Source of the DNA: a virus
Virus record (IMG/VR): IMGVR_UViG_3300035698_014170
Location: 23,341-87,340 of that record
Direction: 5' to 3' (one strand)
DNA: 64,000 bases
Each line of letters starts with the position of its first letter. Positions within the stretch are counted from its first letter, which is position 1. The position numbers were made by a program, and so were the translations under genes. A model generated the notes under the pieces. That model saw nothing but the letters and a program-made list of their open reading frames with translations, did not search any database and was not told where the DNA came from. Shown here one piece after another: positions 1 through 60,971 of this stretch.

Positions 1-690
1 TTTAAAAAGGACGTTGAAGGAGCTAGTTGGCCGAGTACTTTATCTGCTGAATTTAGTAAAGGCGATAAATTTGCAATAGCTTTATTTCAATCAGAAAATA
101 ATGTAGAAGTTTACGATGCAGAAGATAAAAAAATAGATATAATGGCTGGTAAGACAGGTTCATTTAATCCAATACGAGAAGTTGCTCAGATGTTTGATAT
201 ACCTGAAGATATACTCGTACCTAAGGATTTAAATGATTGGTTAGACGAAAAACTGGAAAAGGGACTTGAAGGTCTTGAGGAATATGTAATTGACCAGTTA
301 AAGTATAATTATCAGTTACAATCGACAGCGGAAATTGATCAGGAGAGTTATGAAGAATATGGTTCATTAGTCGATTCAAGTTCAGGCGAAATTATCCCTT
401 ACTTATTTCTAAAAACGGAACTTACAGATAATGATTTTGAGGATATGGCATCAGGGATTATAAGTTGGGCGTCGGATGAAGGTTTAGTTGAAGAAGTATA
501 CGATGCAGAAGATATTTCTGACATGCTCTTTATAGATAGTGTGGCTATAACAACAGCTGTTCAGGAACTTAACTACGGAAGTACGTCACTTCCGGAAAGT
601 GAAGAACGAAAACGAATGGATATCGAAGGTCAGCAAAAGATGGAATTTGCAAAAGAAAGTATTGCTATAATCGAAAGTATAGGTTATTAA
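1..690 (+). CDS. Hypothetical acidic protein, 5' end outside window
   Basis: The reading frame is open from the first base, so the gene begins upstream; an internal ATG at 142 has no ribosome-binding site. The visible 229 residues are acidic and contain no motif I recognise. The stop codon overlaps the ATG of the next gene (TAATG at 688-692), so the two are probably translationally coupled. Its place before the SWIM/polyprotein gene suggests a head or cargo role, which is inference from position only. Confidence 0.6.
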   Translation, partial: FKKDVEGASWPSTLSAEFSKGDKFAIALFQSENNVEVYDAEDKKIDIMAGKTGSFNPIREVAQMFDIPEDILVPKDLNDWLDEKLEKGLEGLEEYVIDQLKYNYQLQSTAEIDQESYEEYGSLVDSSSGEIIPYLFLKTELTDNDFEDMASGIISWASDEGLVEEVYDAEDISDMLFIDSVAITTAVQELNYGSTSLPESEERKRMDIEGQQKMEFAKESIAIIESIGY

Positions 691-1022
691 TGAACGAATT
701 ATTCGAACAAATATTATTAGAAACCGACTATAAGGGCGTAGTCCGCAAGCAAAGATCTATCAATCGTTTGTTTCCTGATTGGAGTGATAAGGTTAAAGGA
801 ATTGCTAAGATGGGCGGACTTCGTATGAAGTCTTCTAATGAAACGGAATGGTATTTTAAAATACATAGTGGCACAACAGCAGGTAAAACATACGATGTTC
901 ATCTTCAATTTAAGAATGTTCAGAATTATTATCCAAGCATGTTAAGGATAGAAGGCTTTGGGTTAAGGATAAAAGTAGAATTGATCGTAGAAAACTTGCA
1001 AAGAAGATGCTTTATAACGTAG
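690..1022 (+). CDS. N-terminal part of SWIM zinc-finger virion protein (split by frameshift)
   Basis: Starts MNELFEQILLETD, an amphipathic leader like that of the gene at 9877. The frame ends about 15 residues after YPSMLRIEGFG, while the frame of the next ORF is open from 914 and continues with VKDKSRIDRRKLAKKM into the SWIM motif. One extra base at GGG 960-962 or AAAA 971-974 would join the two into a single protein of about 960 residues. I read this as the broken N-terminus of the following gene and not as a separate gene. A programmed -1 shift is the alternative. Confidence 0.65.
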   Translation: MNELFEQILLETDYKGVVRKQRSINRLFPDWSDKVKGIAKMGGLRMKSSNETEWYFKIHSGTTAGKTYDVHLQFKNVQNYYPSMLRIEGFGLRIKVELIVENLQRRCFIT

Positions 1023-3595
1023 ATATTGCATTCGATTGTTCTTGCCCAGCATTCCAATATTGGGGCGGTGCTTATATTACTTCTCTTCCTAAGTACGCAG
1101 CAAAATATGGAGATGCAGAAACCAGGGCTCCTAATGTTAGGAACCCAAAACAATATGGAATGGTGTGTAAACACCTTCAGAATCTGATAAACGTACTTCC
1201 TTTTTATGAAAGTACTATGGCACAGTGGCTTACTCAATTTTATGACAAGCAGATAACTGAGATAGAAGCAAAAGCTAAAGAGGAGTATGGTTCGTTCAAA
1301 GCAGCTGGAGCTGAATTAGGTAAAAGAAAAGAAGAACCTGCTGAGCCAGAAGTTAAAGTAAAAGAACCTGGTAAAACAATGCGTACTAGTATTGTTAAGA
1401 ATAAATTAAAAGATAAGGGATTAATAGATAGGATAGTAAAAGAAGGCGTAGAAGATAGACTGGGAAACTGCTATCCGTTATCAGGAAGATATGTTCAAGC
1501 TCATCTTGATGCTATATTAGTACATGGTTCAATTAATGGTATAAGGTTTACGGGAAAAGATTTAGACAATCCTCATGCATGGGTTGAAGAAGGCGACGAA
1601 GTATATGATCCAGTTTGGGATAAAAGACTTCCTAAAGAAGCCTATTATGGGATAATGCAGGCTAAAGTAATTAAGAAATACACGGACGAAGAAGCAGCCT
1701 TAAAAATGATTAGATCTCAACATTGGGGTCCTTGGGATGATATAAAAGAAGCTTGGCAAAAAGTAGGAAGAAAAACTTATAGCAATCAAGTAGGTAAATA
1801 TTTAATAACTTTACGACCAGATCGTCCTACAGCAAAAATGCCTTGGGGAAAATCTTATTCTATATTTGTAGCAGAGGTTTGGCCAGGCGAAAAGAATGTT
1901 TGGAAAAAAGTTGAGAACTTTATGAGTGTAGGTTCTCTTACTCAAGCCAAAAAGAAATCCGAAGAATGGTTAGTAAGTAACGGGTTAAACGAAGATTTAA
2001 ATTTTCGTGATACAACGGATATCCCTCATTATGATAGTATGATTAAGAATCCTGAGTATTTCAAAAAAGAAAAAGGAGCAGAATTTGAGATAGTAGAAAT
2101 GTCTCCTAATGATTATCTTTCTATAGTTATAGACGGAATGTGGGCTGGGTCTGCTAATCTTCGAAGAGATTATAAAAACGATAAAAGTATTTTTACAAGA
2201 ATATTATTAAAAGGTAGACTTAGAGATATTAGAAAATACGCTAAAGAATTTTGGAGTACTGTTTCTGACGTTCATATGCCCTTTCTAGATTTCGGAGTAT
2301 CTAATTGGCTTTCACAAGAAGGACTTCATCGAGCAATAGTAGCTAGAAAACAGAATATTTCTACAATGCCTGTTTTAATTGTTTTTACTAACGTTTCCAA
2401 AAAAGAAATAGTTAAAAGGTTTCCAAAATTAGGAAAGTACGTTACGAACGAAAGTATAATAAAAGAGGCTTTTGAATATAGTTGTGGTTGGATTACTCCG
2501 CAAGGAGAGTATGAAGGCATAGGTAGATTGAGTCATAGTGATTTCGCAGAGCTGTATATGGAAGAAAAAGGGATTTCCTACTCAGTAGACGATGAACTTA
2601 CTATTTTCGGTAAGGTTTCCAGATATATTCGAGTTACAGCATCCAAGGATTCTTTCAGTGAAATAAACTTTGAAATTATATCTCCCAAGGTTACTGTAGC
2701 CCAATTATTAACTATACAGGAAAAAGCTGTAAACTATGAATCAGTTTATTGGGAGGATATAATTAGTAGGGAGTATGGAGAAGATTTAAAAACATTCGTT
2801 ATTTATATACGAAATACATATTTAAACGAAAGTATAATAAAAGAGACAAGAAGGCAAGAATTGTGGATTAGTAAAGGTATTTACGGCTCTAATATAGATC
2901 CAGCTATAAAAACAGCTTCTGTGGAAGAAGTAGCTCGTACAGCTGGAGAATGGGCTGGACGCGAATGGCGTAGAAGAACTGCTTTAATAAAAAACGGAGA
3001 AAGTGTAAATCCTACATGGGGCGATCCTGATAGTAGGGTATCTTGGTCTGACATAATTGCACAGCTCGACGAGGCCGGCGTGACAAAACGTCCTGAAATA
3101 CAAAAAGCTTTGAAACCTTTAGGCGGAAGAATTAGAGAACTTTCTCAACCTGTTTTTAATAAAGCTAAGAAAAATGCTAACGAAAGTATAATAAAAGAGG
3201 ACGCAGCAGAAGCTACTGCTTTTGCAAAAGAAGTTATGATAGCTCTTGAAGCTAATGACGACGCAGCTTTAGAAAAAGCATTAGGATTTGAACCTGGCGA
3301 AGAAGAAGCGGTTATGTCAAAAGCAGATAGTTTAGTTAAGGATTTAAATGGAATGATTGCTAATAATAAAAGTTTACAAGAAAGTAACGCTTTTCAGATT
3401 GTCTCTTATAACTCTTTAGGAGAATTAACTATTTTATCTTCTAAAGGCGTAAGATATCTTATTAGTAAAGTTAATCCTTTTGTTCATAAAAAAATTAAAA
3501 TGTATCTTAGTCATAAAAATTATGGTCCTGCTTGGCAGATGTTTAATAAATTTCCTGTAGAGAGACTTGAAAATGAGAACAGTAAAACTAGATAA
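1007..3595 (+). CDS. Mosaic SWIM / ParB-like polyprotein, putative head cargo
   Basis: 862 residues, probably the remainder of the gene starting at 690. Near the N-terminus is a SWIM-type zinc motif: DCSC followed by VCKH about 45 residues later (CxC..CxH). Around residues 155-210 NCYPLSGRY, HAWVEEGD and VYDPV look like a Cys-His-Asp papain/transglutaminase-type site. Around 420-465 QEGLHRAIVARK..MPVLIVF resembles the ParB-like nuclease fold. Then NESIIKE occurs three times (residues 481, 607, 725), separating blocks of 119, 111 and 131 residues that are unrelated to each other. I-K-E fits the (I/L/V)-x-E cleavage rule of T4-type prohead proteases. Inference: a precursor cut into several proteins packed in the head. 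No protease gene is visible here. Confidence 0.6.
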   Translation: MLYNVDIAFDCSCPAFQYWGGAYITSLPKYAAKYGDAETRAPNVRNPKQYGMVCKHLQNLINVLPFYESTMAQWLTQFYDKQITEIEAKAKEEYGSFKAAGAELGKRKEEPAEPEVKVKEPGKTMRTSIVKNKLKDKGLIDRIVKEGVEDRLGNCYPLSGRYVQAHLDAILVHGSINGIRFTGKDLDNPHAWVEEGDEVYDPVWDKRLPKEAYYGIMQAKVIKKYTDEEAALKMIRSQHWGPWDDIKEAWQKVGRKTYSNQVGKYLITLRPDRPTAKMPWGKSYSIFVAEVWPGEKNVWKKVENFMSVGSLTQAKKKSEEWLVSNGLNEDLNFRDTTDIPHYDSMIKNPEYFKKEKGAEFEIVEMSPNDYLSIVIDGMWAGSANLRRDYKNDKSIFTRILLKGRLRDIRKYAKEFWSTVSDVHMPFLDFGVSNWLSQEGLHRAIVARKQNISTMPVLIVFTNVSKKEIVKRFPKLGKYVTNESIIKEAFEYSCGWITPQGEYEGIGRLSHSDFAELYMEEKGISYSVDDELTIFGKVSRYIRVTASKDSFSEINFEIISPKVTVAQLLTIQEKAVNYESVYWEDIISREYGEDLKTFVIYIRNTYLNESIIKETRRQELWISKGIYGSNIDPAIKTASVEEVARTAGEWAGREWRRRTALIKNGESVNPTWGDPDSRVSWSDIIAQLDEAGVTKRPEIQKALKPLGGRIRELSQPVFNKAKKNANESIIKEDAAEATAFAKEVMIALEANDDAALEKALGFEPGEEEAVMSKADSLVKDLNGMIANNKSLQESNAFQIVSYNSLGELTILSSKGVRYLISKVNPFVHKKIKMYLSHKNYGPAWQMFNKFPVERLENENSKTR
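2447..3199 (+). repeat. Three exact 21-bp repeats encoding NESIIKE
   Basis: The 21-mer AACGAAAGTATAATAAAAGA plus G is identical at 2447-2467, 2825-2845 and 3179-3199, all in the same frame, each encoding N-E-S-I-I-K-E. The DNA between copies is not repeated. Exact nucleotide identity between otherwise unrelated blocks suggests module shuffling or recombination through the linker. Confidence 0.9.
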
Positions 3596-4637: not shown

Positions 4638-5468
4638 ATGTTCGATAGTTTAGCAACAAATTTAATTCATTTAAAAGAAGATACATCTATGTCGTCAATA
4701 TCGTTTTTACCTTCTGGATTAGGAACAGTTAAATCGGCTATTGCTTCTCTTGCAAAACAAATGCCGGAATGGGATATTGAAATACTGGAAAGTGACGACG
4801 GTAAGAAAGTTTATTTTGGCGAAAGTCTTTGTATAGATGTCCCAAACGAACATTGGATAGATTTTTTAAGCTTATTTGATAACTGTGATATAACGAATAG
4901 GCGTATAAATCTGAGTACTGCATTAAACGAAGCTATGGAAGAAGAGCTATCAGATCTTCTAAAGAATTTGAAGCCACAATTAATTAGAACGTTTTCAGAA
5001 GCGCCTTTAGACGAAGTACAATTGGATTTGAATAGATGGAAGAATAGATTTGGAATTGATAAATACAAAGCACAAAACGTTCTTGTATCTTATCAGAATA
5101 AAAAGAACGATCTTCGGAAACTTTATAACGGGTTGCTAAAAGCTTACAAAACTGATAGGGGCAATCTTGAGATGCTTATCGAAGCATTAAAAGGTAAAAC
5201 GTCTCTTGCACCGTTTGAAGTATTTAATGATCATAAATTCATATACGGAGCTAGAGTATTTTCTAGATTTCACGGAGTGAAGATTTTGTTCGAAGCAACA
5301 GTAAGTCCTGAGTTTAATATGTCCGAATCTGTTTATATAGATGATCCAGATGTAATAGATATCTTAGAAGAACAGCCTAGAGGATATAAAATTGTAGGGA
5401 ACGTAGTATATCCAAAAGGTCAACGGTTTGCAGAAACGTTTTATAAAATATTGGAAGAAGCTATATAA
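4638..5468 (+). CDS. Hypothetical protein, 276 aa
   Basis: Start supported by GGAGACC nine bases upstream. The first 17 residues (MFDSLATNLIHLKEDTS) form an amphipathic leader ending L-K-E, similar in style to the leaders at 690 and 9877 and compatible with a cleaved head-targeting peptide. The rest is alpha/beta with a helical middle (residues 95-190). No family recognised. Its TAA overlaps the next ATG (TAATG). Confidence 0.6.
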   Translation: MFDSLATNLIHLKEDTSMSSISFLPSGLGTVKSAIASLAKQMPEWDIEILESDDGKKVYFGESLCIDVPNEHWIDFLSLFDNCDITNRRINLSTALNEAMEEELSDLLKNLKPQLIRTFSEAPLDEVQLDLNRWKNRFGIDKYKAQNVLVSYQNKKNDLRKLYNGLLKAYKTDRGNLEMLIEALKGKTSLAPFEVFNDHKFIYGARVFSRFHGVKILFEATVSPEFNMSESVYIDDPDVIDILEEQPRGYKIVGNVVYPKGQRFAETFYKILEEAI

Positions 5469-7491: not shown

Positions 7492-9555
7492 ATGAGCAAT
7501 AGTGAAATTAATCCAGTTGATTTATTTGAATGTCTTGTAAATGATAACGGCATCAAAGTTTTTACCGAAGGCAAAGCAGAAATTGAAAATTCACTAGACC
7601 GGTTAGCTAAAGTTTCTGGTACAGAATTGTCAGATATTTGGTTAGTCGAAGTAGCAGGTAAGAAAGTTCCCGAAAGTAGACTAGACGTAATCGACGATAT
7701 AATGCATTCTAAATACAGTGCAGAATACGACAGTTATCTTAAAGGCGAAACTGGGTTAGCAGAAAGAAAAAATCGTTTCAAAAACTTAAGAATATCTGAA
7801 GCAGGATACAACAAAGGCGATACTGTTAAAGTCGTTAAAGATAGTGAATGGGGTCAATGGCTTGTCAAATATTATGAAAATGGTAAATATTCAGAAGATA
7901 AGACATCTTATCACGATGATAAAGAAGATGCAGAAGGAACAGCAGAGTTTACTCGTAAGAAAATTGCTACTGCTAACGAATCTACAGAATCAGAAGAAAC
8001 AGCTCCTGCTGAATTAATTGAAGAACCAGAATTAGACTCTGAAGATGTATCAATGGAAGACGGGGAAAAAACTCCTGATAAGAAAAAACAAGATGGTATG
8101 GACGAAGTGTCTGATAAAGAGTTGGAGCAACTTATTGATAAGAAAAACGAATCTACTGATTCGATGGATAATAGATTACAGAAAATGTTTACTGAGGATA
8201 AAATAGAAATTCTTCAAAAGAAAATTGATCGATTAAATGCTCAAGCAAAAGAAACAGATAGCCAGCAACAAGGTACTAGAAAATCAAGTCGAGGCTACGG
8301 ACTTCAAAATATGTACGGAGAGATAGATAAAGCAGAAAAGGAAATTGCTGTTCTAAAAAAAAGATTAGGAGAATCTATTAACGAATCTGTGCAAGAATTA
8401 ATAGGAGAAGTATCTGGTATAACACAGTTTGAACAGAAGATATTGAATTGGGCAATTGAAAACAATGTGATAGATAACGAATTTCCTTCTTATAATGACA
8501 TGATGTATGCAATTTCTCGTCATCCTAAAGCAGAAAAACAATCGTTGTCTTCTATAGGCGATAACGAAGTTCGATTAGCCGATAACGCGGACGTATCAGG
8601 AATGTATTTAAGATATATTTTAATGCCTAAAGCAAAAGAAGCTTTTAAACACAGTTACTCAGATACCGAATCTTGGTTTGATGTAGATAAAGAAGGCAAT
8701 CCTACTAAAGAATCTTTACATATTTGCAACGATTGTAGTAAGACGTTTAGGAGTAAACTTTCTGAGTGTACGCATTGTAAATCAAAAAACGTAGAAAAAA
8801 TAGTAGAAGAAATATCAGATCAACTAGCCTTAGGTACAAAGATTGAAATGGAACATACGGACGACAAAGAAGAAGCTGCTAAAATAGCAATTGACCATAT
8901 TCAAGAAGATCCTGATTATTATACAAAACTTAAAAAGATGGAAGCTGGCGGTTGTGACGAATCTAAAGTAAACGAATTTGACGACAATAAAGACGGATAT
9001 ACAGTAATTGCAAAAGGTATAGCAGATAAAGATTCAGCAGATGAACTTGCTAATACTCATCAAGCCACTGTTATACAAGACGAAGAAGATGAAAAGAAGT
9101 TCGCTGTAATCAAAAAGACAGACGAATCTAAAGTAAACGAAGACACTCGTAATACTGTGATTACAGCTTTTGATCCACATGGTTATAGTTTATCGGCTGA
9201 AGAAATAGATAAAGATACAGGCACTAGAACTCTTACTCTATCAAAAGGCGCCGAAGAATTAAAAATACAGATTATGCCTACTCAATCAGACGCATACGAA
9301 AGCAAAGTAAAGGAACGTGATCAAGGTAGTCCTCTTAATACTAATAAAATAGATTGGGGAGATAAGGAAGAGGTTCGAGAACTTTTCGTTGAGAATTTTG
9401 GCGAAGATTTTGATCCTGCTAATCTAGTAACAGTAGAAGACAACGATGTTAAAACAGCTGTATATATAGATTACAGTGGAAGAGTTGAATATTACTTTGT
9501 TTATTGGAACACTAATTATAATGATCTTCCTACTATTAAGAAGATAAATTTTTAA
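7492..9555 (+). CDS. Mosaic acidic virion protein with DESKVNE repeats
   Basis: 687 acidic residues, start after AAGGAACAATA. Modules in order: N-terminal helical part; GDTVKVVKDSEWGQWLVKYY region (about 108-165); Glu-rich coiled coil (about 165-300); FEQKILNWAIE block; a zinc ribbon CNDC..CTHC (about 418-440); EMEHTDDKEEAAKIAIDHI with EDPDYYTKL, the DUF5661 signature (about 460-485); then blocks bounded by DESKVNE at 489 and 544 and by YESKVKE at 602. V-N-E and V-K-E fit the prohead protease rule, as do I-S-E and L-I-G-E earlier. Inference: a second head cargo precursor, related in design but not in sequence to the gene at 1007. Confidence 0.6.
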   Translation: MSNSEINPVDLFECLVNDNGIKVFTEGKAEIENSLDRLAKVSGTELSDIWLVEVAGKKVPESRLDVIDDIMHSKYSAEYDSYLKGETGLAERKNRFKNLRISEAGYNKGDTVKVVKDSEWGQWLVKYYENGKYSEDKTSYHDDKEDAEGTAEFTRKKIATANESTESEETAPAELIEEPELDSEDVSMEDGEKTPDKKKQDGMDEVSDKELEQLIDKKNESTDSMDNRLQKMFTEDKIEILQKKIDRLNAQAKETDSQQQGTRKSSRGYGLQNMYGEIDKAEKEIAVLKKRLGESINESVQELIGEVSGITQFEQKILNWAIENNVIDNEFPSYNDMMYAISRHPKAEKQSLSSIGDNEVRLADNADVSGMYLRYILMPKAKEAFKHSYSDTESWFDVDKEGNPTKESLHICNDCSKTFRSKLSECTHCKSKNVEKIVEEISDQLALGTKIEMEHTDDKEEAAKIAIDHIQEDPDYYTKLKKMEAGGCDESKVNEFDDNKDGYTVIAKGIADKDSADELANTHQATVIQDEEDEKKFAVIKKTDESKVNEDTRNTVITAFDPHGYSLSAEEIDKDTGTRTLTLSKGAEELKIQIMPTQSDAYESKVKERDQGSPLNTNKIDWGDKEEVRELFVENFGEDFDPANLVTVEDNDVKTAVYIDYSGRVEYYFVYWNTNYNDLPTIKKINF
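8956..9141 (+). repeat. Two exact 21-bp repeats encoding DESKVNE
   Basis: GACGAATCTAAAGTAAACGA plus A is identical at 8956-8976 and 9121-9141, in frame, with a third diverged copy (YESKVKE) at 9295-9315. It parallels the NESIIKE repeats at 2447-3199 in a different gene. Confidence 0.85.
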
Positions 9556-9565
9556 TAGAAAGATA

Positions 9566-9883
9566 TTGATGCATTTATTTCACGATAGTTTAGATAACGA
9601 AGTTGATTTAGATAACTTAGCTACTTATCCTGCTGAATGGTATAGGTTAACTGCTTACGAATTATTCGATATGGCTTGGGCGGAAGCAGGTAAATCATTA
9701 ATTTATATGAAATATTTTTATCCTAATTTTGATTGGTCCGGACAAGACGAAAACGTAAATATATTATGTATAGAATTACGAGATAATTATAAAGAACGTT
9801 TTTGTGACGATACTCCAGAAAATCGTTTATGGTTTATGAGTTGGATTTTTAGATTTCAAACTGAGGTAGAAAATCAATGTTAG
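9566..9883 (+). CDS. Hypothetical protein, 105 aa
   Basis: A start at 9566 or at the adjacent ATG codon at 9569 is possible; AGAAAGATATTG lies upstream. Trp/Tyr-rich acidic protein (EWYRLTAYELFDMAWAEAGK). No family recognised. It overlaps the transglycosylase gene start by 7 bp. Confidence 0.6.
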   Translation: MMHLFHDSLDNEVDLDNLATYPAEWYRLTAYELFDMAWAEAGKSLIYMKYFYPNFDWSGQDENVNILCIELRDNYKERFCDDTPENRLWFMSWIFRFQTEVENQC

Positions 9884-10494
9884 AACTTTTAGAACAACTT
9901 ATAAAAGAACAAGATGTCATTATGAATGAATTAAGTGGTAAAGGATTTAAAAAAGCTTTAGCCACTGGTATAGTAGGAGCATCTACTGTATTAGGCGGAT
10001 TACAAAATACTGCACAGGCATCCCCTCCTTCCGACGCTAAACCAATATATAATCAGCCGAGTTACTCGGCACCTTTACATAAAGATGTGTCAAAGGTATC
10101 TGCCGGTGCAGTAATTATTAAACTCGATCCAATATGGAGAATTGAATCTTCTAGAGGAAAAAATCTTTGGAATAAAAGGACAAGAGCAAGAGGACATTTT
10201 CAATTTGTTGAAAAGACATGGAACGAATGTGTAAAAAGAATGGGTAAGGATTGGGATTGGTGGACTGATTCGATGGATTACAAAAAAAGCAGTCAAGTCG
10301 CTGATTATTATTTAAACAAAAGAATTCCTCAGATGATAAGGTATTATAAAATTCCTGATACAATCGAAACAAGAATAGGTGCGTATAACTGGGGAATCGG
10401 AAATACGTTAAAAAGTTATAGGAAATACGGCGATAATTGGTTACAACATTCTACAAAAGAGACTATAGATTACGTAAGAAAGTATAAATTGTAA
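9877..10494 (+). CDS. Lytic transglycosylase (SLT fold), probably virion-associated
   Basis: 205 residues. The C-terminal domain has the SLT/lysozyme-like signature: ESSRG with the catalytic Glu (about residue 89), ARGHFQFVEKTW, and GAYNWGIGN in place of the usual AYNAG. It cleaves the glycan strand of peptidoglycan. The N-terminus starts MLELLEQLIKEQD, an amphipathic leader ending I-K-E like other proteins here, followed by a hydrophobic stretch (ALATGIVGASTVLGGL) and AQA-S, which resembles a signal peptide and cleavage site. Inference: packed in the virion or exported, acting on the wall during entry. Confidence 0.8.
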   Translation: MLELLEQLIKEQDVIMNELSGKGFKKALATGIVGASTVLGGLQNTAQASPPSDAKPIYNQPSYSAPLHKDVSKVSAGAVIIKLDPIWRIESSRGKNLWNKRTRARGHFQFVEKTWNECVKRMGKDWDWWTDSMDYKKSSQVADYYLNKRIPQMIRYYKIPDTIETRIGAYNWGIGNTLKSYRKYGDNWLQHSTKETIDYVRKYKL

Positions 10495-11820
10495 ATGAAA
10501 AAACTAATAGAACACTTAATAAAAATTCAAGAAACTTTTGATAGAAAAACTATAGTTGCTATCAATAAAGTTTATAAAGACCACGAAAGAAGACTAGATC
10601 CAGATTCTGAACAAGTGAAAACTGCACTTCAAGGCTTAAAAAGTTATTACATTAATTATATTGATTGGTGGGCACAAGGACACGGAAAAAACGAATCTTT
10701 TAAATTAAAAATGGCTTATACTAAAAGATTAGAAGAAATACAAGATAGTTTACAGTCGGGAGATATCAAAGCTCAAATTATTGCATTAGATAATGCTATA
10801 AATCAATGGCATATCGATTTTCCAGTAATCGAACATTTAAGAATGGAATTAGAAAATTTAGAAGAAGATGATATTTTAAGTAGTGAAATCGAACATGTAA
10901 TAGACGATACATACGATATATTACGATCGTTAGGACGATTACCTAAAAAAAGTCCTTATGTTCTTGAATCTACAATTGATTTTCCTCGTAAAGAACTTTG
11001 TCCGGCTATTTGGTTAAAAGAAAATAATAGATATGTTATTAAACCGGAAGTTAAGGAAATTATCTTTAATTTATTATCAGAATACGGTATAATAAATGTA
11101 ATAGAGATAGCAGAAGAAATTCATATAACTGGATCAATCGGCACCGCCCAATATCTTGACGATACTGATATCGACGTACATGTTGTAGCAGATGCTAGTA
11201 AAATTGAAAACGCCGAAAATGTTCAAAAAGATATATTTAAATACTTTAGGAAAGAAGAAAACACTGTTTATATCGATCAGCACCCTATAGAAGTTTATTT
11301 ACAATTTGATCCAAAGCAAGAACTTCTTTCTGATGCTGTTTATAATTTGATAGACGATAAATGGATAATAGGTCCTAAAATTGTACCTGCTAGTTACGAT
11401 CCTTATGAAGATTTTAGTGATGTACTTCAAGATGTAAAAGATTTAGCAGGTGAAGCAGATAAAGAATTTGGCGAATTAAAAAGAGATGCCGTTGATTACA
11501 GTATAATAAGTAAAGCAATTGAAAATTTAGACGGAGCCGATCAAAAAGCTCTTCTTACTAAATTGAAAGATAAACTTTATGAAATAGAAAACGATATAAG
11601 TAAATTAAAAGGTCTTAAAAAGAATTGGATTCAAATGCGTAGAAACTCTTCCAAAGGAGATGGTAAAACTCTTACTTGGAGAGAAGACAATGCAAAATTC
11701 AAATATTTGCAGCGATATCATTATATGAAAACAATTTCAAAACTTGAGCAAATACTTAGTGATAATAAAATAGAACCAGAAGAATTAAATACTATTCGTC
11801 AGATGATGGGAAGTAATTAA
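10495..11820 (+). CDS. Nucleotidyltransferase-fold protein
   Basis: 441 residues. Residues about 205-265 carry the nucleotidyltransferase pattern: TGSIGTAQYL, then DDTDIDVHV (the paired D-x-D metal ligands) and IEVYLQF as a third-acid strand. Flanks are helical. The first residues (MKKLIEHLIKIQETF) are an amphipathic leader like its neighbours. The substrate is unknown. ATG directly follows the transglycosylase stop, and TAATG overlaps the next gene. In a cargo region, it could be a protein injected with DNA. Confidence 0.65.
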   Translation: MKKLIEHLIKIQETFDRKTIVAINKVYKDHERRLDPDSEQVKTALQGLKSYYINYIDWWAQGHGKNESFKLKMAYTKRLEEIQDSLQSGDIKAQIIALDNAINQWHIDFPVIEHLRMELENLEEDDILSSEIEHVIDDTYDILRSLGRLPKKSPYVLESTIDFPRKELCPAIWLKENNRYVIKPEVKEIIFNLLSEYGIINVIEIAEEIHITGSIGTAQYLDDTDIDVHVVADASKIENAENVQKDIFKYFRKEENTVYIDQHPIEVYLQFDPKQELLSDAVYNLIDDKWIIGPKIVPASYDPYEDFSDVLQDVKDLAGEADKEFGELKRDAVDYSIISKAIENLDGADQKALLTKLKDKLYEIENDISKLKGLKKNWIQMRRNSSKGDGKTLTWREDNAKFKYLQRYHYMKTISKLEQILSDNKIEPEELNTIRQMMGSN

Positions 11821-14954: not shown

Positions 14955-15790
14955 ACGGCGGAGAAACTGGTGACGGTGTAACTACTGCTGTTCAAGATGC
15001 AATGTTAGCAATAGCAGAAGCAAGAGCAGATTGTATTGCAATAATGGATATGGATTACGATGAGATGGGTGCAGGTGTAGACGATGCTATTACTTGGCGG
15101 AAGACTGTTAATAACATGAATTCAAGTTACGCAGCACTTTATGCTCCTTGGGTTAGAATAAACGATCCTTATAATGATGTATTAATGTACGTACCGCCAT
15201 CAGGATATGTAGGAGCCCAATTTGCTTATAATGATTATGTTGCACAACCTTGGAATGCTCCAGCAGGTTTTAATCGAGGAATGTTAAATATTGTATCTGT
15301 GCAAGACATATTTACAGAAGGCGAAAGAGATGTTTTATATGAGGCTCAGATTAATCCTATTCAAACGTTCAGAGGCGAAGGCGACGCAATCTGGGGTCAA
15401 AAGACAATGCAGACAAAATCTTCTGCTCTTAGTCGTGTAAATGTACGTAGATTACTTATCGTAATTGAAAAGGCGATGGCTATTAGTCTTAGACCGTTTG
15501 TATTCGAAAACAATAGTGAGTTAACTAGATTTAGAATTGAAGCTATGTTGATCGAATACTTAGATCTTTTATCTTCACAAGGTGCTTTCCAAACAGAAGC
15601 AGGCGATAACGGATATCTAGTTGTTGTAGATACTACTAACAACACAACAGCAGTAATAGATAGGAATGAGCTTAAAGTTTCGGTTTTTGTGAAACCTGCG
15701 AGAACGGCAGAATTTCTTGAACTCTCTACGGTTGTTACCAGTTCTGGGGCCAGCTTTGATGAGCTCACTTCTCGTGGAGCTTTACTGTAA
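14906..15790 (+). CDS. Tail sheath protein, C-terminal part
   Basis: Continuation of the sheath in the -1 frame from about 14919: VVDIRILLNGGETGDGV, the MDMDYDEM region, and the conserved sheath C-terminus with QTFRGEGDAIWGQKTM, SRVNVRRLLIVIEKAM, and VKPARTAEFLELSTVV. The nominal ATG/GTG at 14906 is not a real start. Stop overlaps the homing endonuclease start (TAATG). Confidence 0.9.
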   Translation: MVCFSNPAVVDIRILLNGGETGDGVTTAVQDAMLAIAEARADCIAIMDMDYDEMGAGVDDAITWRKTVNNMNSSYAALYAPWVRINDPYNDVLMYVPPSGYVGAQFAYNDYVAQPWNAPAGFNRGMLNIVSVQDIFTEGERDVLYEAQINPIQTFRGEGDAIWGQKTMQTKSSALSRVNVRRLLIVIEKAMAISLRPFVFENNSELTRFRIEAMLIEYLDLLSSQGAFQTEAGDNGYLVVVDTTNNTTAVIDRNELKVSVFVKPARTAEFLELSTVVTSSGASFDELTSRGALL

Positions 15791-16689
15791 TGAGTGTTAA
15801 AAAGAAACGAAAATCTTGGACTAAGGAAGCTTTAGAAAAACGAAGTCTAACTATCCGAAATAAATATAAAAACGGATATGTTTCTCCTTTGTTAGGTTCT
15901 ACTTCAGCAAAGTTAGGAAAAACTTACGAAGAGATTTATGGTGTAGATCAAGCTTTAGAATTAAAACAACGGTTACATAAATCACATATAGGCATTTCGA
16001 CGTCTCGTAAAGGAAAAACTTACGAAGAGATTTATACCCTTGAAACAGCTAACAGATTTAAGAAACGAATGGTCGAAAACAATCCTTCTAAAGCTCGTAT
16101 AGGTAAAACACATAAAGAGTTTTTTGGAATTGAAAAAGCTAAGGAAATAAGTAAGTTAATTAGTAAAAGTAGAAAAGGGAAAACTTACGAAGAGATTTAT
16201 GGAGTTAAACAAGCTACTAAACTAAAAGAAAACTTGCGAAAGAAACAAAAAGCTTGTTGGGCTAACGTAGATTATAAGGAATGGCACGGGAAATTAACAG
16301 CAAAATCTCAACATGTAAAGCCTAACAAACCCGAAACCATTTTATTAAATCTTCTCAATATAGTTCTTCCAAATCAATATGAATTTGTAGGGGACGGCGA
16401 AGTGTGGATCAACGGAAAGAATCCTGATTTTATTAATGTAAACGGCCAGAAGAAATTAATAGAGATGTTTGGCGATCATTGGCATTCAGAGGAAATTCAA
16501 GGCGTTCCAACAGAACAACATGTGAAGGAACGTAAACTAATTTTTTTCAATCGTGGATATGAAACTCTCATTATTTGGGAACATGAATTAAAAGATTTAA
16601 AAACTGTAACTAATAAAGTATTAAAATTTAATAAAGGAACCAAAAATGTCAGACATGTCGATAAATTCGCTCAAGAACAGTTTAACTAA
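15790..16689 (+). CDS. Homing endonuclease (NUMOD3 repeats plus Vsr-like nuclease)
   Basis: 299 residues inserted between sheath and tube genes. The N-terminal half has four NUMOD3-type DNA-binding repeats; three contain GKTYEEIY encoded by nearly identical DNA at 15916, 16014 and 16180, and the fourth reads GKTHKEFFG. The C-terminal domain has the Vsr/PD-(D/E)XK layout: KPETILLNLL, FVGDGEVWINGKNPDF, KKLIEMFGDHWH, and GYETLIIWEHEL. It makes a site-specific double-strand break that drives its own spread. The end overlaps the tube gene by 44 bp. Free-standing mobile gene. Confidence 0.88.
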   Translation: MSVKKKRKSWTKEALEKRSLTIRNKYKNGYVSPLLGSTSAKLGKTYEEIYGVDQALELKQRLHKSHIGISTSRKGKTYEEIYTLETANRFKKRMVENNPSKARIGKTHKEFFGIEKAKEISKLISKSRKGKTYEEIYGVKQATKLKENLRKKQKACWANVDYKEWHGKLTAKSQHVKPNKPETILLNLLNIVLPNQYEFVGDGEVWINGKNPDFINVNGQKKLIEMFGDHWHSEEIQGVPTEQHVKERKLIFFNRGYETLIIWEHELKDLKTVTNKVLKFNKGTKNVRHVDKFAQEQFN

Positions 16690-31929: not shown

Positions 31930-32913
31930 ATGGGATATACAACAAAACATAGTAGATTAAATAAAAGAGCAAAGCGAGTAATTCGATCAAATCGCGGAAC
32001 TTCTATAAATAACATACTTTCTGCTAATTCTTGGAAAGATCGACGTTGTTATATAATAGCTGGCGGTCCTTCTTTAAAAGATTTTGATTTTAGTAATATG
32101 AAAGACGAATTAACTATCGGAATCAATAAAGCTTTTACTAAGTATCCGTGTACTATTAATTACAGCATGGATCCTAAGTTCTATAAATACATCTCCGATC
32201 CTGGAATATCTGATTCGACTAGAGCTGAAATACATCGTCAATGGTTAGCTTATAAAGGTATTAAAGTATTTGTAGACAACAATTCTAAAAATGTATTATT
32301 TGATCCTTCTATATATTTAGTAAAAAAATTACATAAACCTACTGTTAGTTTCGATGTTGTAAAAGGAATATACAAAGGTACAAATAGTGGTGTCGGTGCT
32401 TTAATGTTAGCAATTGCATTAGGTGCTAATCCTATATATCTCGTAGGAGTAGATTTAAAAGTAGACGTTGCAGATAGAGCTACTCATTGGCATAGAGGAT
32501 ATCCCAAACAAAAAATAACTGACTTTGAACGCAATTTACTTAAATTTAAAGCAGACTTCGAATTGATCGCCCCAATTATCAAAGCAGCCGGAATAAAAGT
32601 GATTAATTTAAATTCTGATTCTGCGTTAGAATGTTTTCCTAAACAGGTTGTCGAAAATACTAGAAAAGTAGACACAGTTAGAGCTATTAATAAACGAACT
32701 GCTCTTTTAAAATCTGTAAATTATGATATACTGAAGTTAAGTAAGGAAATAATAACTTCGCCTAGTTTGATTGAAAAGAAAATCGAATTTGAAAAGAAAG
32801 AAAAAGAATTTATTTGTCCTATATGTAATAAATCTTTTACGACAGACTTAGGTTTAAAAATACACATAGGTCGAGTACACTCTGACGACATTGGAAATGG
32901 GAAAGAAAAGTAA
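31930..32913 (+). CDS. MAF/DUF115-like protein with C-terminal C2H2 zinc finger
   Basis: 327 residues. CYIIAGGPSLKDFDF, SMDPKFYKYI, GTNSGVGALMLAIALGANPI and YLVGVDLKV with a following THWHRGYP define a MAF-flagellin-glycosylation/DUF115-type Rossmann domain, first of three paralogs. Residues about 296-317 add a classical zinc finger (FICPICNKSFTTDLGLKIHI then GRVH: C-x2-C-x12-H-x4-H). The combination is unusual in phage. Role: probably sugar transfer or sugar-phosphate chemistry. The start has no strong ribosome-binding site. Confidence 0.65.
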   Translation: MGYTTKHSRLNKRAKRVIRSNRGTSINNILSANSWKDRRCYIIAGGPSLKDFDFSNMKDELTIGINKAFTKYPCTINYSMDPKFYKYISDPGISDSTRAEIHRQWLAYKGIKVFVDNNSKNVLFDPSIYLVKKLHKPTVSFDVVKGIYKGTNSGVGALMLAIALGANPIYLVGVDLKVDVADRATHWHRGYPKQKITDFERNLLKFKADFELIAPIIKAAGIKVINLNSDSALECFPKQVVENTRKVDTVRAINKRTALLKSVNYDILKLSKEIITSPSLIEKKIEFEKKEKEFICPICNKSFTTDLGLKIHIGRVHSDDIGNGKEK

Positions 32914-33574
32914 GTACATTTCAGAAATCTTTGCGTCCGATTATTTAAAAAATAAAAGATGTTTTTTATTAGCAGGCGGACCTTCACTTAAAGATTTTGA
33001 CTATTCACTTCTTCAAAATGAATTCACAATCGGAATCAATAAGACTTTTATGACTTATTCTCCTACCATCAATTATTCTATGGACTTAAAATTCTATAAT
33101 TATATCTCACAACCTGGGATAACACAAGAACAAAGAAAAGCACATAATAAATGGAACGGTTATGAAGGGATTAAAGTTCTTTTAAAACCGCTTAGAGATG
33201 AACCACTTGCAGAAGATATTTATTTAGTTCAAAATTTAAAAAAGAGATCTTTATGTTTAGATATAAAGCAAGGGATTTACTCTGCTAAAAACTCTGGCTT
33301 TGGTGCTTTAATGCTAGCAATAGCATTAGGATGTAAAGAAATTTATTTATTAGGTTATGACTTAAAACTTGATAATCGAACCACTCATTGGCATAAAGGT
33401 TATCCAAAACAAGAACCAGAAGTATATGAAAAGACTTTAAAGAAATTTATTAAGAGTTTTGAAGAATTCACAGATGTTATAAAAGATAACGGGATTAAGG
33501 TAGTTAATTTAAACGGATTTTCGGCTTTAAGTTGTTTTGAAAAGAAAGATATACGTTCAATTTTAAAGGTGTGA
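32897..33574 (+). CDS. MAF/DUF115-like protein, second paralog
   Basis: 225 residues from the ATG at 32897 (an in-frame TTG lies two codons earlier); overlaps the previous gene. Same motifs: CFLLAGGPSLKDFDYS, SMDLKFYNYISQPGI, AKNSGFGALMLAIALGCKEI, YLLGYDLKL and THWHKGYP. About half the residues match the first paralog and it lacks the zinc finger, so a tandem duplication. Confidence 0.65.
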   Translation: MGKKSKYISEIFASDYLKNKRCFLLAGGPSLKDFDYSLLQNEFTIGINKTFMTYSPTINYSMDLKFYNYISQPGITQEQRKAHNKWNGYEGIKVLLKPLRDEPLAEDIYLVQNLKKRSLCLDIKQGIYSAKNSGFGALMLAIALGCKEIYLLGYDLKLDNRTTHWHKGYPKQEPEVYEKTLKKFIKSFEEFTDVIKDNGIKVVNLNGFSALSCFEKKDIRSILKV

Positions 33575-33580
33575 TTATTT

Positions 33581-33658
33581 GGGGCTATAATTATACCCGT
33601 TACTGATTTAAACCCAGTACAAGGAGTGTTAGACCTCTTAAACAAACACTTAAAGGAT
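33581..33658 (+). repeat. TATAATTATA element, copy C
   Basis: GGGGCTATAATTATACCCGT, then a TTACTG/CAGTA hairpin, then GTACAAGGAGTGTTAGACCT and AAACAAACACTTAAAGGATG just before the ATG at 33664. AGTGTT can pair with AACACT. Forms the leader of the third MAF-like gene. Confidence 0.75.
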
Positions 33659-33663
33659 GTTAC

Positions 33664-34314
33664 ATGGAAAAAAAAGAAATGTATATAGTAGCAGGCGGAC
33701 CTTCTTTAAAAAACTTTGATTTTAATCGTTTAAAAAATCGTACCACTATCGTTGTCAATAAATCTATATTCGATGTCCCTAATTCAAATTATTTTATAAC
33801 AACCGATTATACGTTTTTAAAAAAAATTAAAAAACAAAAAGATCAATTCGATTCAATTGAGTGTACGAAAATATTTATAGCAGATCTTCATTATCCTTAC
33901 ATCAAAGAAAAAAACGGACGAATTACTGATACAAGAAGTAAATTAGTATACGAATTGCAAGACTTTGACGTTGTAATCAAATCTAAAAAAGTAGAGGGGA
34001 TTGGTTATAGGTACAACGAATTTCGAACCGGATTAAATTCTGGATACAGTGCATTACAATTAGCTGTACTATTAGGATATGAAAAAATATACTTATTAGG
34101 CGTAGATTTAACTAAACAAAACATTACTCATTATCATGGAGGATATGGTGAACCGGCAAAGAAATTTAATGCCAAGATAAATACTTATTTAAACTATTTT
34201 AAAAAAGGTTTAGAACAAATTAAACGCGATAAAATAACAGAAGTATTTTCTTGTAGTCCGAATAGTGCGTTGAACAGCACAATCGATTATGTAAATATCA
34301 ATACGTTAGTATAG
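33664..34314 (+). CDS. MAF/DUF115-like protein, third paralog
   Basis: 216 residues. MYIVAGGPSLKNFDFNRLKN, ITTDYTFLKKI, TGLNSGYSALQLAVLLGYEK, YLLGVDLTK and THYHGGYGEP match the other two but more distantly. The gene is separated from the second paralog by the structured element at 33581. Confidence 0.65.
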   Translation: MEKKEMYIVAGGPSLKNFDFNRLKNRTTIVVNKSIFDVPNSNYFITTDYTFLKKIKKQKDQFDSIECTKIFIADLHYPYIKEKNGRITDTRSKLVYELQDFDVVIKSKKVEGIGYRYNEFRTGLNSGYSALQLAVLLGYEKIYLLGVDLTKQNITHYHGGYGEPAKKFNAKINTYLNYFKKGLEQIKRDKITEVFSCSPNSALNSTIDYVNINTLV

Positions 34315-47272: not shown

Positions 47273-49342
47273 ATGAAACGCATCTCTGACAGCACGAAAA
47301 ATAAAATTCGAGGAGAAAGAAAAAAAGGTACAAGTTTTAGAAAGATTGGGGCGAAGTACGGAGTCCATCATTCAACGGTACAAACCATTTGTCAAGATAT
47401 TTCTGTCGAAAATGCTATAAGTCTTAAAGATTTCAATCCTTCTAATCCTATGGTTAGATCAGACGCTCTTAAATTTATTCAAAAGAAAAAGAAACAAGGG
47501 TTTACAACAGATCAGCTTGCTAAAAAATTAGATACTACATTAGAGCGTACAAAGAAGGTAATTCAATATCTTTCCCATCACGATGGTTATAATATACTTA
47601 ATCAAGGACAAGACCATTGGCAGCTTGTTGTACAATTACCTGAAGAAAAACCACTTGAATTAAGTAGACTGCTCGGAAAAACTTATCGATTTGGTTTAAT
47701 ATCTGACACTCATTTAAATAATGAAAATGAAAGATTAGATGTCGTAGAAGCAGCTTACGATGAATTTGCTAGACAGAAAATAACAGATGTTTTTCATGCT
47801 GGTAATTTGATTGACGGAGAATTTCGATTTAATAAATACGAGATTAAAAACTGGGGAGTACATAATCAAGCACAGTATGTTGCAGATGTCTATCCTGAAC
47901 GTAGTGGTATAACGACTTACTTTATCACAGGTACTTGTCACGAAGGTTGGTATCAAGATAGTAGTGGATTAAAAGTAGGTTGGTACATTCAAAAAGTCTG
48001 CGAAGAAGCTGGAAGAACAGATATGGTTCATATTGGACATGTCGAAAGAGATATAATTCTTAAACAACCTATGGGTGATACTAAAATTAGATTAATGCAT
48101 CCAGGCGGAGGTTGTGCATATGCTCAATCTTATCCAGGACAAAAAATGGTCGAATCTTTTCAAGGCGGAGAAAAACCGCACATGTTGATATTAGGACATT
48201 ATCATAAATTCAACGTAAACTATGCACGTGAAATAACGACCATTATGGCGGGATGTTTTCATAGTGAAGCAAAAATAACGACAAAAAAAGGAGTTAAGAA
48301 AATCTCTAAAATAAAAAAGGGAGATTTAGTTTTAACACACAATAATCGATATAGAAAAGTAACTAAACTTTTTAAACGAGAATATGATGAAGATTGGGTT
48401 ACATTACATTTCGGACATAAAGGTTCGCAGTGTAACGGAGGAAATAGAATTACCGCTACATCAGAACATCCTATCCAAGTAGTTCGTGAAAATTTTAAGG
48501 AATGGATTCCGATTAAAAATATCGAACTTGACGATATTATTTTAGTAAATTCATCAGAATGTAAAGGATGTGGAGCTAAAGTACCTTATTATTTAAGCTA
48601 TTGTAAAAAATGTAATCCTTCAACAATATTAGCAAAAAAACGAAGAAAAAATGGGTTTATAACGTGGTACGAACGTTCGAAAGAAAACAAAAGATCTACA
48701 CATTTAGATAAAATGGAAGGGAAACCAATAAATAAGAAAGACTCAAAACATAAGCATTTCGTTAACGACATCTTGCCGTTTTGCGAAAAGAAAAAACAAG
48801 AAGGGTCAATAATTGTACCTGTCGGCGGCCCGCTTATTCCAGATGCTATTGAATTTAAAGACGGTAAAGTTATATTACACGAACTAGAAAGAGGCTTTTC
48901 TTACTGTAATACAAGTTTTAAAGATAAGTATAAAGATACTTATATGGAAGATTTTGTAGACGAAATTGAATGGAAACTATTAAAAAAACAGCAGGCAGAG
49001 TATAAAAGAACTTGGTATAAAGAAGATGAATCTGGATTTATTCAAGTTAAAGTTACTTCTAAATTAATAAAACCTACGAATAATAGTAAAGGAAAAAAGT
49101 TTGTTTATAATTTTGAAGTGGACGAGGATAATAGTTATGTTGCAGCAAATGTTGTTGTACACAACTGTCTTGAGGACCAGACTTCTTTTATGCGGAAAAA
49201 TAAATTGGCAGCACACGTTGGTTTTAGTGTAGTAACAATAGGATCACGAATTGACGGAACAATAGGAAGATGTAATGTAGAGTGGTTTCCTTTCTACGAT
49301 AGAAAATATCACCAGAAATTAAATAGCTATGTAATTGAGTGA
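47273..49342 (+). CDS. HTH-metallophosphoesterase interrupted by an intein
   Basis: 689 residues. The N-terminus is a Hin-type helix-turn-helix (KGTSFRKIGAKYGVHHSTVQ) and a second winged region. From about 140 a calcineurin-like phosphoesterase: GLISDTHLNN, VFHAGNLIDGEFR, FITGTCHEGW, LILGHYHKF. The domain is split after TTIMAG by an intein (residues 328-631) and resumes with CLEDQTSFMRK. Extein product 385 residues. The HTH suggests action at DNA. AAAGG precedes the ATG. Not a terminase: no Walker motifs. Confidence 0.82.
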   Translation: MKRISDSTKNKIRGERKKGTSFRKIGAKYGVHHSTVQTICQDISVENAISLKDFNPSNPMVRSDALKFIQKKKKQGFTTDQLAKKLDTTLERTKKVIQYLSHHDGYNILNQGQDHWQLVVQLPEEKPLELSRLLGKTYRFGLISDTHLNNENERLDVVEAAYDEFARQKITDVFHAGNLIDGEFRFNKYEIKNWGVHNQAQYVADVYPERSGITTYFITGTCHEGWYQDSSGLKVGWYIQKVCEEAGRTDMVHIGHVERDIILKQPMGDTKIRLMHPGGGCAYAQSYPGQKMVESFQGGEKPHMLILGHYHKFNVNYAREITTIMAGCFHSEAKITTKKGVKKISKIKKGDLVLTHNNRYRKVTKLFKREYDEDWVTLHFGHKGSQCNGGNRITATSEHPIQVVRENFKEWIPIKNIELDDIILVNSSECKGCGAKVPYYLSYCKKCNPSTILAKKRRKNGFITWYERSKENKRSTHLDKMEGKPINKKDSKHKHFVNDILPFCEKKKQEGSIIVPVGGPLIPDAIEFKDGKVILHELERGFSYCNTSFKDKYKDTYMEDFVDEIEWKLLKKQQAEYKRTWYKEDESGFIQVKVTSKLIKPTNNSKGKKFVYNFEVDEDNSYVAANVVVHNCLEDQTSFMRKNKLAAHVGFSVVTIGSRIDGTIGRCNVEWFPFYDRKYHQKLNSYVIE
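48254..49165 (+). mobile_element. Intein with embedded nuclease-like domain
   Basis: 304 residues. Begins with Cys1 (CFHSEAKITTKKGVKKISKI), block B ITATSEHPIQVV, and ends YNFEVDEDNSYVAANVVVHN with Cys+1 in the extein. Splices itself out of the phosphoesterase. The middle has a zinc-like CKGC..CKKC pair and IPDAIEFKDGKVILHELERG, which resembles a PD-(D/E)XK/Vsr-type nuclease in place of the common LAGLIDADG. The insertion lies just after the GHYHKF metal site, a conserved active-site location. Confidence 0.88.
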
Positions 49343-60541: not shown

Positions 60542-60724
60542 TCAGTCCTTTTTAATAGAGACAAGTTTATAATTCTTATCTAGTTTTCTTTTTCGTGCTC
60601 CTTCTATACAAGGACTACATCTTCCTGATATAGCACATTGTGAGCCTTTTTTGGCAGTAGTAGTATACCCACATTCTTTACATCTAAACTTGATACTGTT
60701 TTTGTATTCTTTAAATATCTTCAT
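60542..60724 (-). CDS. Small zinc-ribbon-like protein, 60 aa
   Basis: CKECG, then C-x-x-x..CSPC (four or five Cys), a basic protein ending KLVSIKKD. The stop is adjacent to the ligase start; the start overlaps the previous gene. Possibly nucleic-acid binding. Confidence 0.6.
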   Translation of the reverse strand: MKIFKEYKNSIKFRCKECGYTTTAKKGSQCAISGRCSPCIEGARKRKLDKNYKLVSIKKD

Positions 60725-60971
60725 TTTTCATTTCTTTCATTTTTATTTCGTATTCTTCTTTAGTAAACTCTACATTAAGAATAGCATATTGTAAGTCTCG
60801 AACATTTACGCAGAAACTGCAATAATCACAGGAATCACAGGAATCACAGGAATAACAGTAATCACAGGAATAACAGTAATCACAGGAATAACAGGACTGT
60901 AACTTTTGCAGTTCCGCCTTTAATTCGGCTCCAGTCATTTTTAATATTTTTTCTTTTTTTCCGTCTTTCAA
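60711..60971 (-). CDS. Cys-rich protein with period-3 CxxC repeat
   Basis: 86 residues from a TTG (ATG at 60938 is an alternative). Residues about 27-55 read CYSCDYCYSCDYCYSCDSCD and on: Cys at every third residue, about ten in a row, from imperfect 9- and 18-bp tandem DNA repeats (TGTTATTCCTGTGATTAC type). Flanks are helical and charged. Such spacing suits a metal cluster or a repeat solenoid; function unknown. Confidence 0.65.
   Translation of the reverse strand: MKDGKKEKILKMTGAELKAELQKLQSCYSCDYCYSCDYCYSCDSCDSCDYCSFCVNVRDLQYAILNVEFTKEEYEIKMKEMKNEDI

Follow-up and report, generated by a model that had tools for sequence, protein, structure and literature searches.

In a 64,000-nucleotide window (the whole stretch of DNA analysed here, taken from an IMG/VR virus record of 87 kb) from an uncultured T4-like phage, the open reading frame (ORF) at 1007-3595, together with an upstream frame at 690, probably encodes a modular internal head precursor of T4 type. 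We favour a reading in which this precursor is built into the prohead, cut at its linkers by a gp21-type protease and reduced to products that are packed and probably ejected. An ancestral SWIM protein with a capsid-targeting-like propeptide would have been lengthened by a chain of separate modules, every one of them flanked by a phi-x-E site; the chain would be incorporated in the prohead core, cut during head maturation and freed as proteins that probably leave the head with the DNA. Relatives gain, lose, duplicate and exchange modules at their phi-x-E sites. The account is carried by the repeats, the distribution of the linker motif, the protease gene, the mobility and boundaries of the modules, and the N-terminal sites, all of which are established from the sequence.

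Three identical linkers in a head-region ORF

The features of the ORF and of the SWIM gene with which it begins are listed below, a slash marking a predicted cut.

690-722 (+): propeptide MNELFEQILLE/T, predicted cut after Glu11, resembling the T4 capsid-targeting sequence; from alignment with relatives
690-1390 (+): ancestral SWIM (CxC..CxH) gene; phrog_4315, phrog_1722; one-base frame change near 941
1007-3595 (+): ORF of 862 amino acids (aa), SWIM domain and modular C-terminal extension; no match past the SWIM region in the records of five relatives
1442-1444 (+): candidate site RIVKE/G (E146), before the transglutaminase-like module; pattern match alone
1445-1741 (+): transglutaminase-like module with invariant Cys and His; from alignment, Pfam and model; elsewhere alone or differently placed
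1742-1993 (+): middle module, its end being candidate site GLNE/D (E329); pattern match alone
1994-2446 (+): block first labelled ParB-like, label unconfirmed
2447-2467 (+): linker 1, NESIIKE/A (E487)
2468-2824 (+): block B, 119 aa
2825-2845 (+): linker 2, NESIIKE/T (E613)
2846-3178 (+): block C, 111 aa
3179-3199 (+): linker 3, NESIIKE/D (E731)
3200-3595 (+): block D, 131 aa, and stop codon

A first-pass annotation of this DNA had described three identical, in-frame 21-bp copies between unrelated blocks, and its coordinates are exact: AACGAAAGTATAATAAAAGAG occurs at 2447-2467, 2825-2845 and 3179-3199 (+), vs 0.02 matches expected from shuffles, each copy encoding NESIIKE with E487, E613 or E731 as its final Glu. 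The blocks between and after the linkers (119, 111 and 131 residues) are mutually unrelated. No further copy is present in the window when up to three mismatches are allowed, the 87-kb record holds just these three, and the exact 21-mer is absent from all other viral contigs searched. The DNA identity covers the codons from N to E and stops exactly there on both sides. Given the codon usage of this genome, identical codons across the three copies have a p value of 1.2e-4, so that the DNA identity exceeds what the protein sequence requires, and the linkers were probably copied recently. Such an excess, together with the recombination of T4 at 6-10 bp of microhomology (PMC9391042), could be taken to mean that recent duplication or short-homology recombination left the repeats behind and that a protease plays no part, but we consider this very improbable because relatives retain the peptide motif with different DNA and in unrelated contexts.

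The first-pass annotation also treated 690-3595 as a single gene, which has to be corrected, since 690-1022 and 1007-3595 are different frames. Its SWIM domain is borne out by a CxC..CxH motif that is invariant in relatives, where the SWIM homologues form one continuous ORF of about 200-280 aa. In four relatives with 40-48% capsid-protein identity, both pieces correspond to one uninterrupted SWIM protein of 200-275 aa located between a neck gene and a homologue of gene 4638-5468; because relatives keep this stretch in one frame, we place a one-base frame break near 941 here. Judged from these alignments, an assembly error or a genuine one-base change is more likely than programmed frameshifting at 941, which we rejected given the single frame of the relatives and the lack of an evident slippery site. 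When those four relatives and the more distant locus L014 were searched, their records matched the SWIM part alone and nothing of the extension beyond it. A SWIM homologue is present in Streptococcus phage GXN1, likewise between neck and sheath genes. In the SWIM genes of L075, L076 and L077 an intein-like insert interrupts the CxC motif (CLTGDTKI ... VHNC); that of L076 matches the Pfam intein splicing domain (expectation value (E) 3e-16) and, weakly, HNH.

The linkers fit the T4 cleavage rule and recur in head genes

The region upstream of the ORF contains a portal gene and a scaffold-like gene, and it encodes a gp21-type prohead maturation protease with a long C-terminal extension (phrog_207, E 4e-31) and a gp23-type major head protein (phrog_138, E 8e-34). 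The likely maturation site of the capsid protein in most relatives reads [LIVM]FE/[TA]T; it was taken from the family and not mapped from T4, because the published cut site of T4 gp23 aligns about a dozen columns away. In T4 the published cleavage rule is L/I-X-E, and a short capsid-targeting sequence at the N-terminus of the internal proteins is itself cut at such a site (PMC9026906). The NESIIKE linkers match this rule, as phi-x-E, at P3 and P1.

The hexamer ranking covers 511 proteins, from this genome and 27 related loci. Relatives were reached only via alignments of the capsid protein and of the SWIM protein; single-sequence searches of IMG/VR with ORF 1007-3595, ORF 7492-9555 and the capsid protein, and of genome contigs with ORF 1007-3595, returned no relatives, and the blocks, searched one by one with tblastn in phage records, gave nothing convincing. 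Counts across the loci are uncorrected for kinship among them. The pattern ES[IK][IVT][KN]E, chosen post hoc, occurs eight times in this genome vs 0.05 expected, and is confined to the scaffold, the protease extension and the ORFs 1007-3595 and 7492-9555, the latter encoding a second long protein. As strict patterns were fixed only once copies had been seen, all hexamers were ranked by independent contexts, which is a fairer test in that no motif is preset. ESKVNE ranks first, with 11 contexts vs four for the runner-up, and is still first, with nine, once this genome is removed. A looser motif was observed 10 times in SWIM proteins (0.3 expected), 18 times in the 7492 family (1.25), 11 times in the protease (1.4) and three times in the scaffold (0.15), and was found neither in the capsid protein nor in sampled tail proteins. 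NESIIKE is thus, on sequence comparison, a local version of a family motif ESKVNE that has phi-x-E at its end.

Its presence in the scaffold and the protease extension would also be expected of a docking or capsid-targeting peptide that binds one or the other, in which case the entire chain might be packaged as one multidomain polyvalent protein that stays uncut at the linkers; delivery without cutting sometimes occurs among polyvalent proteins from phages and plasmids (PMC5512222). We regard this as unlikely: at both P3 and P1 the motif obeys the published rule, it is similar to the site of capsid-protein maturation and it is located between modules, and in T4 even the targeting sequence is cut (PMC9026906).

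Predicted propeptides and exchange of modules among relatives

The predicted propeptide MNELFEQILLE/T aligns with IIDE/V, LIE/AT and LVE/AT of relatives. When an N-terminal site is defined as phi-x-E/[ATSV] within the first 28 residues, it is found in 18 of 25 members of the SWIM family (2.3 expected), 15 of 20 of the 7018 family (1.2 expected) and 13 of 16 of the 10495 family (1.3 expected), vs 4 of 24 (3.6 expected) and 1 of 14 (0.9 expected) in two control families. For the 4638-5468 family the count (8 of 26 vs 7.1 expected) is not significant.

The SWIM protein stands alone in 15 relatives, has only a low-complexity tail in two, and carries extra modules in nine and in this phage. Just ahead of the transglutaminase-like module, relatives carry ESKMNE/, NESVNE/ or TKLKE/: the module is preceded by NESVNE in L053 and flanked by ESKMNE and ESKVNE in L058, and in L068 the order is ESRVNE, another module and then the transglutaminase-like one. 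A second module in L058 is tandemly duplicated, with TEERIKE at the end of each copy. DUF5662 is encoded by its own gene here, is built into the SWIM protein of two relatives (L057 and L075) and is joined to the nucleotidyltransferase in L060. One further module recurs as part of the SWIM protein in L059, L076 and L077, and as part of the 4638 homologue in L059 and L061. A phi-x-E lies near 23 of the 30 module boundaries vs 11.0 at shifted positions, a number reached by none of 2000 shifts, and the strict motif lies near eight (1.2 expected; 4 of 2000 shifts).

Comparison of homologues, which the first-pass annotation had proposed as a check for module gain or loss at the linker, thus shows relatives gaining and losing modules at motif-bearing sites. 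Its suggestion that identical linker DNA allows modules to be swapped is not supported as a general mechanism, since the linkers of relatives are conserved as peptides and mostly differ as DNA; as read from these loci, module swapping at linkers proceeds without a need for identical DNA.

The modules of the extension

The module at 1445-1741 had been called transglutaminase-like from the sequence, and this assignment gains support: C18 and H53 are invariant in all 12 aligned members, and five of the 12 weakly match Pfam Transglut_core3 (best E 0.0023). Its model has a predicted local distance difference test (pLDDT) score of 88, and Foldseek on the PDB gave no significant match, the weak ones including LapG and vasohibins. 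On these grounds the module is likely a transglutaminase-like or papain-like enzyme, and it could be a cysteine peptidase. A further search placed it, alone or within other proteins, in more viral contigs, and some of those proteins begin MKTFNTYLNE or MIKLKDLLTE, resembling the T4 targeting sequence. The ParB-like domain annotated at 1994-2446, on the other hand, found no match in Pfam, PHROG and PDB comparisons. AlphaFold without an alignment gave a pLDDT of 35 for the 862-aa chain, which is of no use.

These modules bear on another way of reading the shared motif of scaffold and protease extension, namely that the extension of the SWIM protein is a scaffold-like core part, fragmented like T4 gp22, gp67 and gp68, the pieces of which exit the head and are not delivered; T4 core proteins are cut to fragments and most of these exit (PMC9026906). 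We find this quite improbable given the enzyme-like predicted fold of the transglutaminase-like module and its invariant Cys and His. In addition, related modules exist as separate genes with propeptide-like N-termini, which suggests mature proteins.

Neighbouring genes and other features of the window

Several genes downstream of the ORF have motifs or N-termini of the same kind:

4638-5468 (+): neighbour conserved in relatives; phi-x-E near the N-terminus in many, here HLKE/DT; carries the Z module in L059
7018-7455 (+): neighbour conserved in relatives; N-terminal IIE/AKD
7492-9555 (+): second candidate polyprotein, 687 aa, DUF5661 (E 1e-11); DESKVNE twice and YESKVKE
8956-8976 (+): DESKVNE linker, first copy, DNA identical to 9121-9141
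9121-9141 (+): DESKVNE linker, second copy
9295-9315 (+): YESKVKE linker
9877-10494 (+): SLT-type transglycosylase (Pfam SLT, E 3e-6) with N-terminus MLELLEQLIKE/; family of three members
10495-11820 (+): nucleotidyltransferase-like; in relative L060 joined to DUF5662

Two head-region genes of one related locus, L004:9929-10450 and L004:12986-14488, both contain VSNTDEDSEEVAIKKLTE, another sign of segment sharing. A relative of the head region (L132) is carried by a 179-kb contig in a metagenome-assembled genome that bears the name of the Asgard archaeon Candidatus Borrarchaeum weybense; either the contig was wrongly binned or it stems from a virus of this archaeon. Elsewhere in the window, an ORF with GKTYEEIYG repeats (15790-16689), possibly a homing endonuclease, is located between sheath and tube genes, and three adjacent paralogous ORFs at 31930-34314 have AGGPSLK in common. 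A long series of genes of sugar-transfer and methyltransferase-like type follows these paralogues, as far as about 47200. A phosphoesterase-like ORF at 47273-49342 has an apparent intein-like stretch (CFHSEAKITTKKGV ... VVVHNC), and a short ORF at 60711-60971 has CYSCDYC in tandem.

Discussion

The first-pass annotation saw in this ORF a cargo polyprotein that is cut in the head. That idea has become more plausible with the gp21-type protease encoded by the same genome, the motif in the scaffold, the protease extension and the second long protein, and the propeptide of the SWIM protein; the cutting itself remains at the level of a prediction. From the sequence features we infer cleavage, packaging, ejection or delivery, and the functions of the modules. 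Several observations weigh against this interpretation. The phi-x-E signature is weak and occurs 19 times in the 862-aa ORF, so the true cut sites are uncertain, and some of the 30 module edges were placed by eye. Exact ESKVNE loses its top rank once the 7492 family is removed. Blocks B, C and D have no detected relatives in phage records or related loci, and no homologue of the middle block or of the ParB-labelled block was found in relatives. As the gene is broken by the frame change, this copy may be non-functional or misassembled. Finally, phage P1 annotates the SWIM family as a tail protein: P1 gp25 and the SWIM-like proteins of phrog_1722 are homologous to the SWIM gene here in the CxC..CxH region, and gp25 has a weak virion signal, whereas the members described here have a head-protease-like propeptide and sometimes extra modules.

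Among known systems, the closest parallels are internal head proteins and polyvalent proteins. T4 IPI, IPII, IPIII and Alt resemble it in their short N-terminal phi-x-E propeptide, in having genes near head and neck genes, and in sharing a genome with a gp21-type protease and a gp23-type capsid protein; in T4 each propeptide goes with a single cargo protein (PMC9026906), whereas internal sites link a chain of several modules here, and the make-up of that chain is not the same in all relatives. In SPN3US and phiKZ, many internal head proteins are cut after Glu by diverged gp21-type proteases (gp245 and gp175). Of 14 mapped SPN3US sites, 13 remove N-terminal propeptides and the remaining one is in the protease itself, and the portions of these sources at hand do not describe the separation of several modules (PMC10052503, PMC9026906), unlike the chain proposed here. 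Polyvalent proteins of phages and conjugative elements likewise have several unrelated domains on a single polypeptide, are encoded near virion genes and are mosaic between relatives, and the authors themselves drew the analogy to polyproteins; for those proteins, however, release was proposed to occur via a built-in metallopeptidase (PMC5512222), whereas the repeated linker in our phage would be cut in trans by the protease of head maturation. Pfam, PHROGs and PDB comparisons gave none of the polyvalent signature domains (DdrB-like ParB, zincin-like metallopeptidase), DdrB-like ParB not having been compared directly. By analogy, the proposed precursor falls between T4 internal proteins and polyvalent proteins, with a trans-acting head protease in place of the built-in peptidase.

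The targets described for prohead proteases comprise, to our knowledge, capsid proteins, scaffolds and individual internal proteins that carry a propeptide, and the literature searched, with partial coverage, holds no description of a modular chain of this kind. A broader proposal, which we find as easy to doubt as to credit, is that these are true cargo polyproteins in an uncultured T4-like phage family, processed by the head-maturation protease, with ESKVNE/NESIIKE as a portable joint; whatever module sits between two such joints would be packed with the chain, freed in the head and injected, and cargo would move freely between stand-alone propeptide genes and chains. If so, bacterial viruses would have their own counterpart to the polyproteins known from RNA viruses, and the chain would suggest a simple way of loading several proteins into a capsid. 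Such chains would also explain how T4-like phages diversify their injected proteins, and would make the cargo recognisable by sequence alone in uncultured phages.

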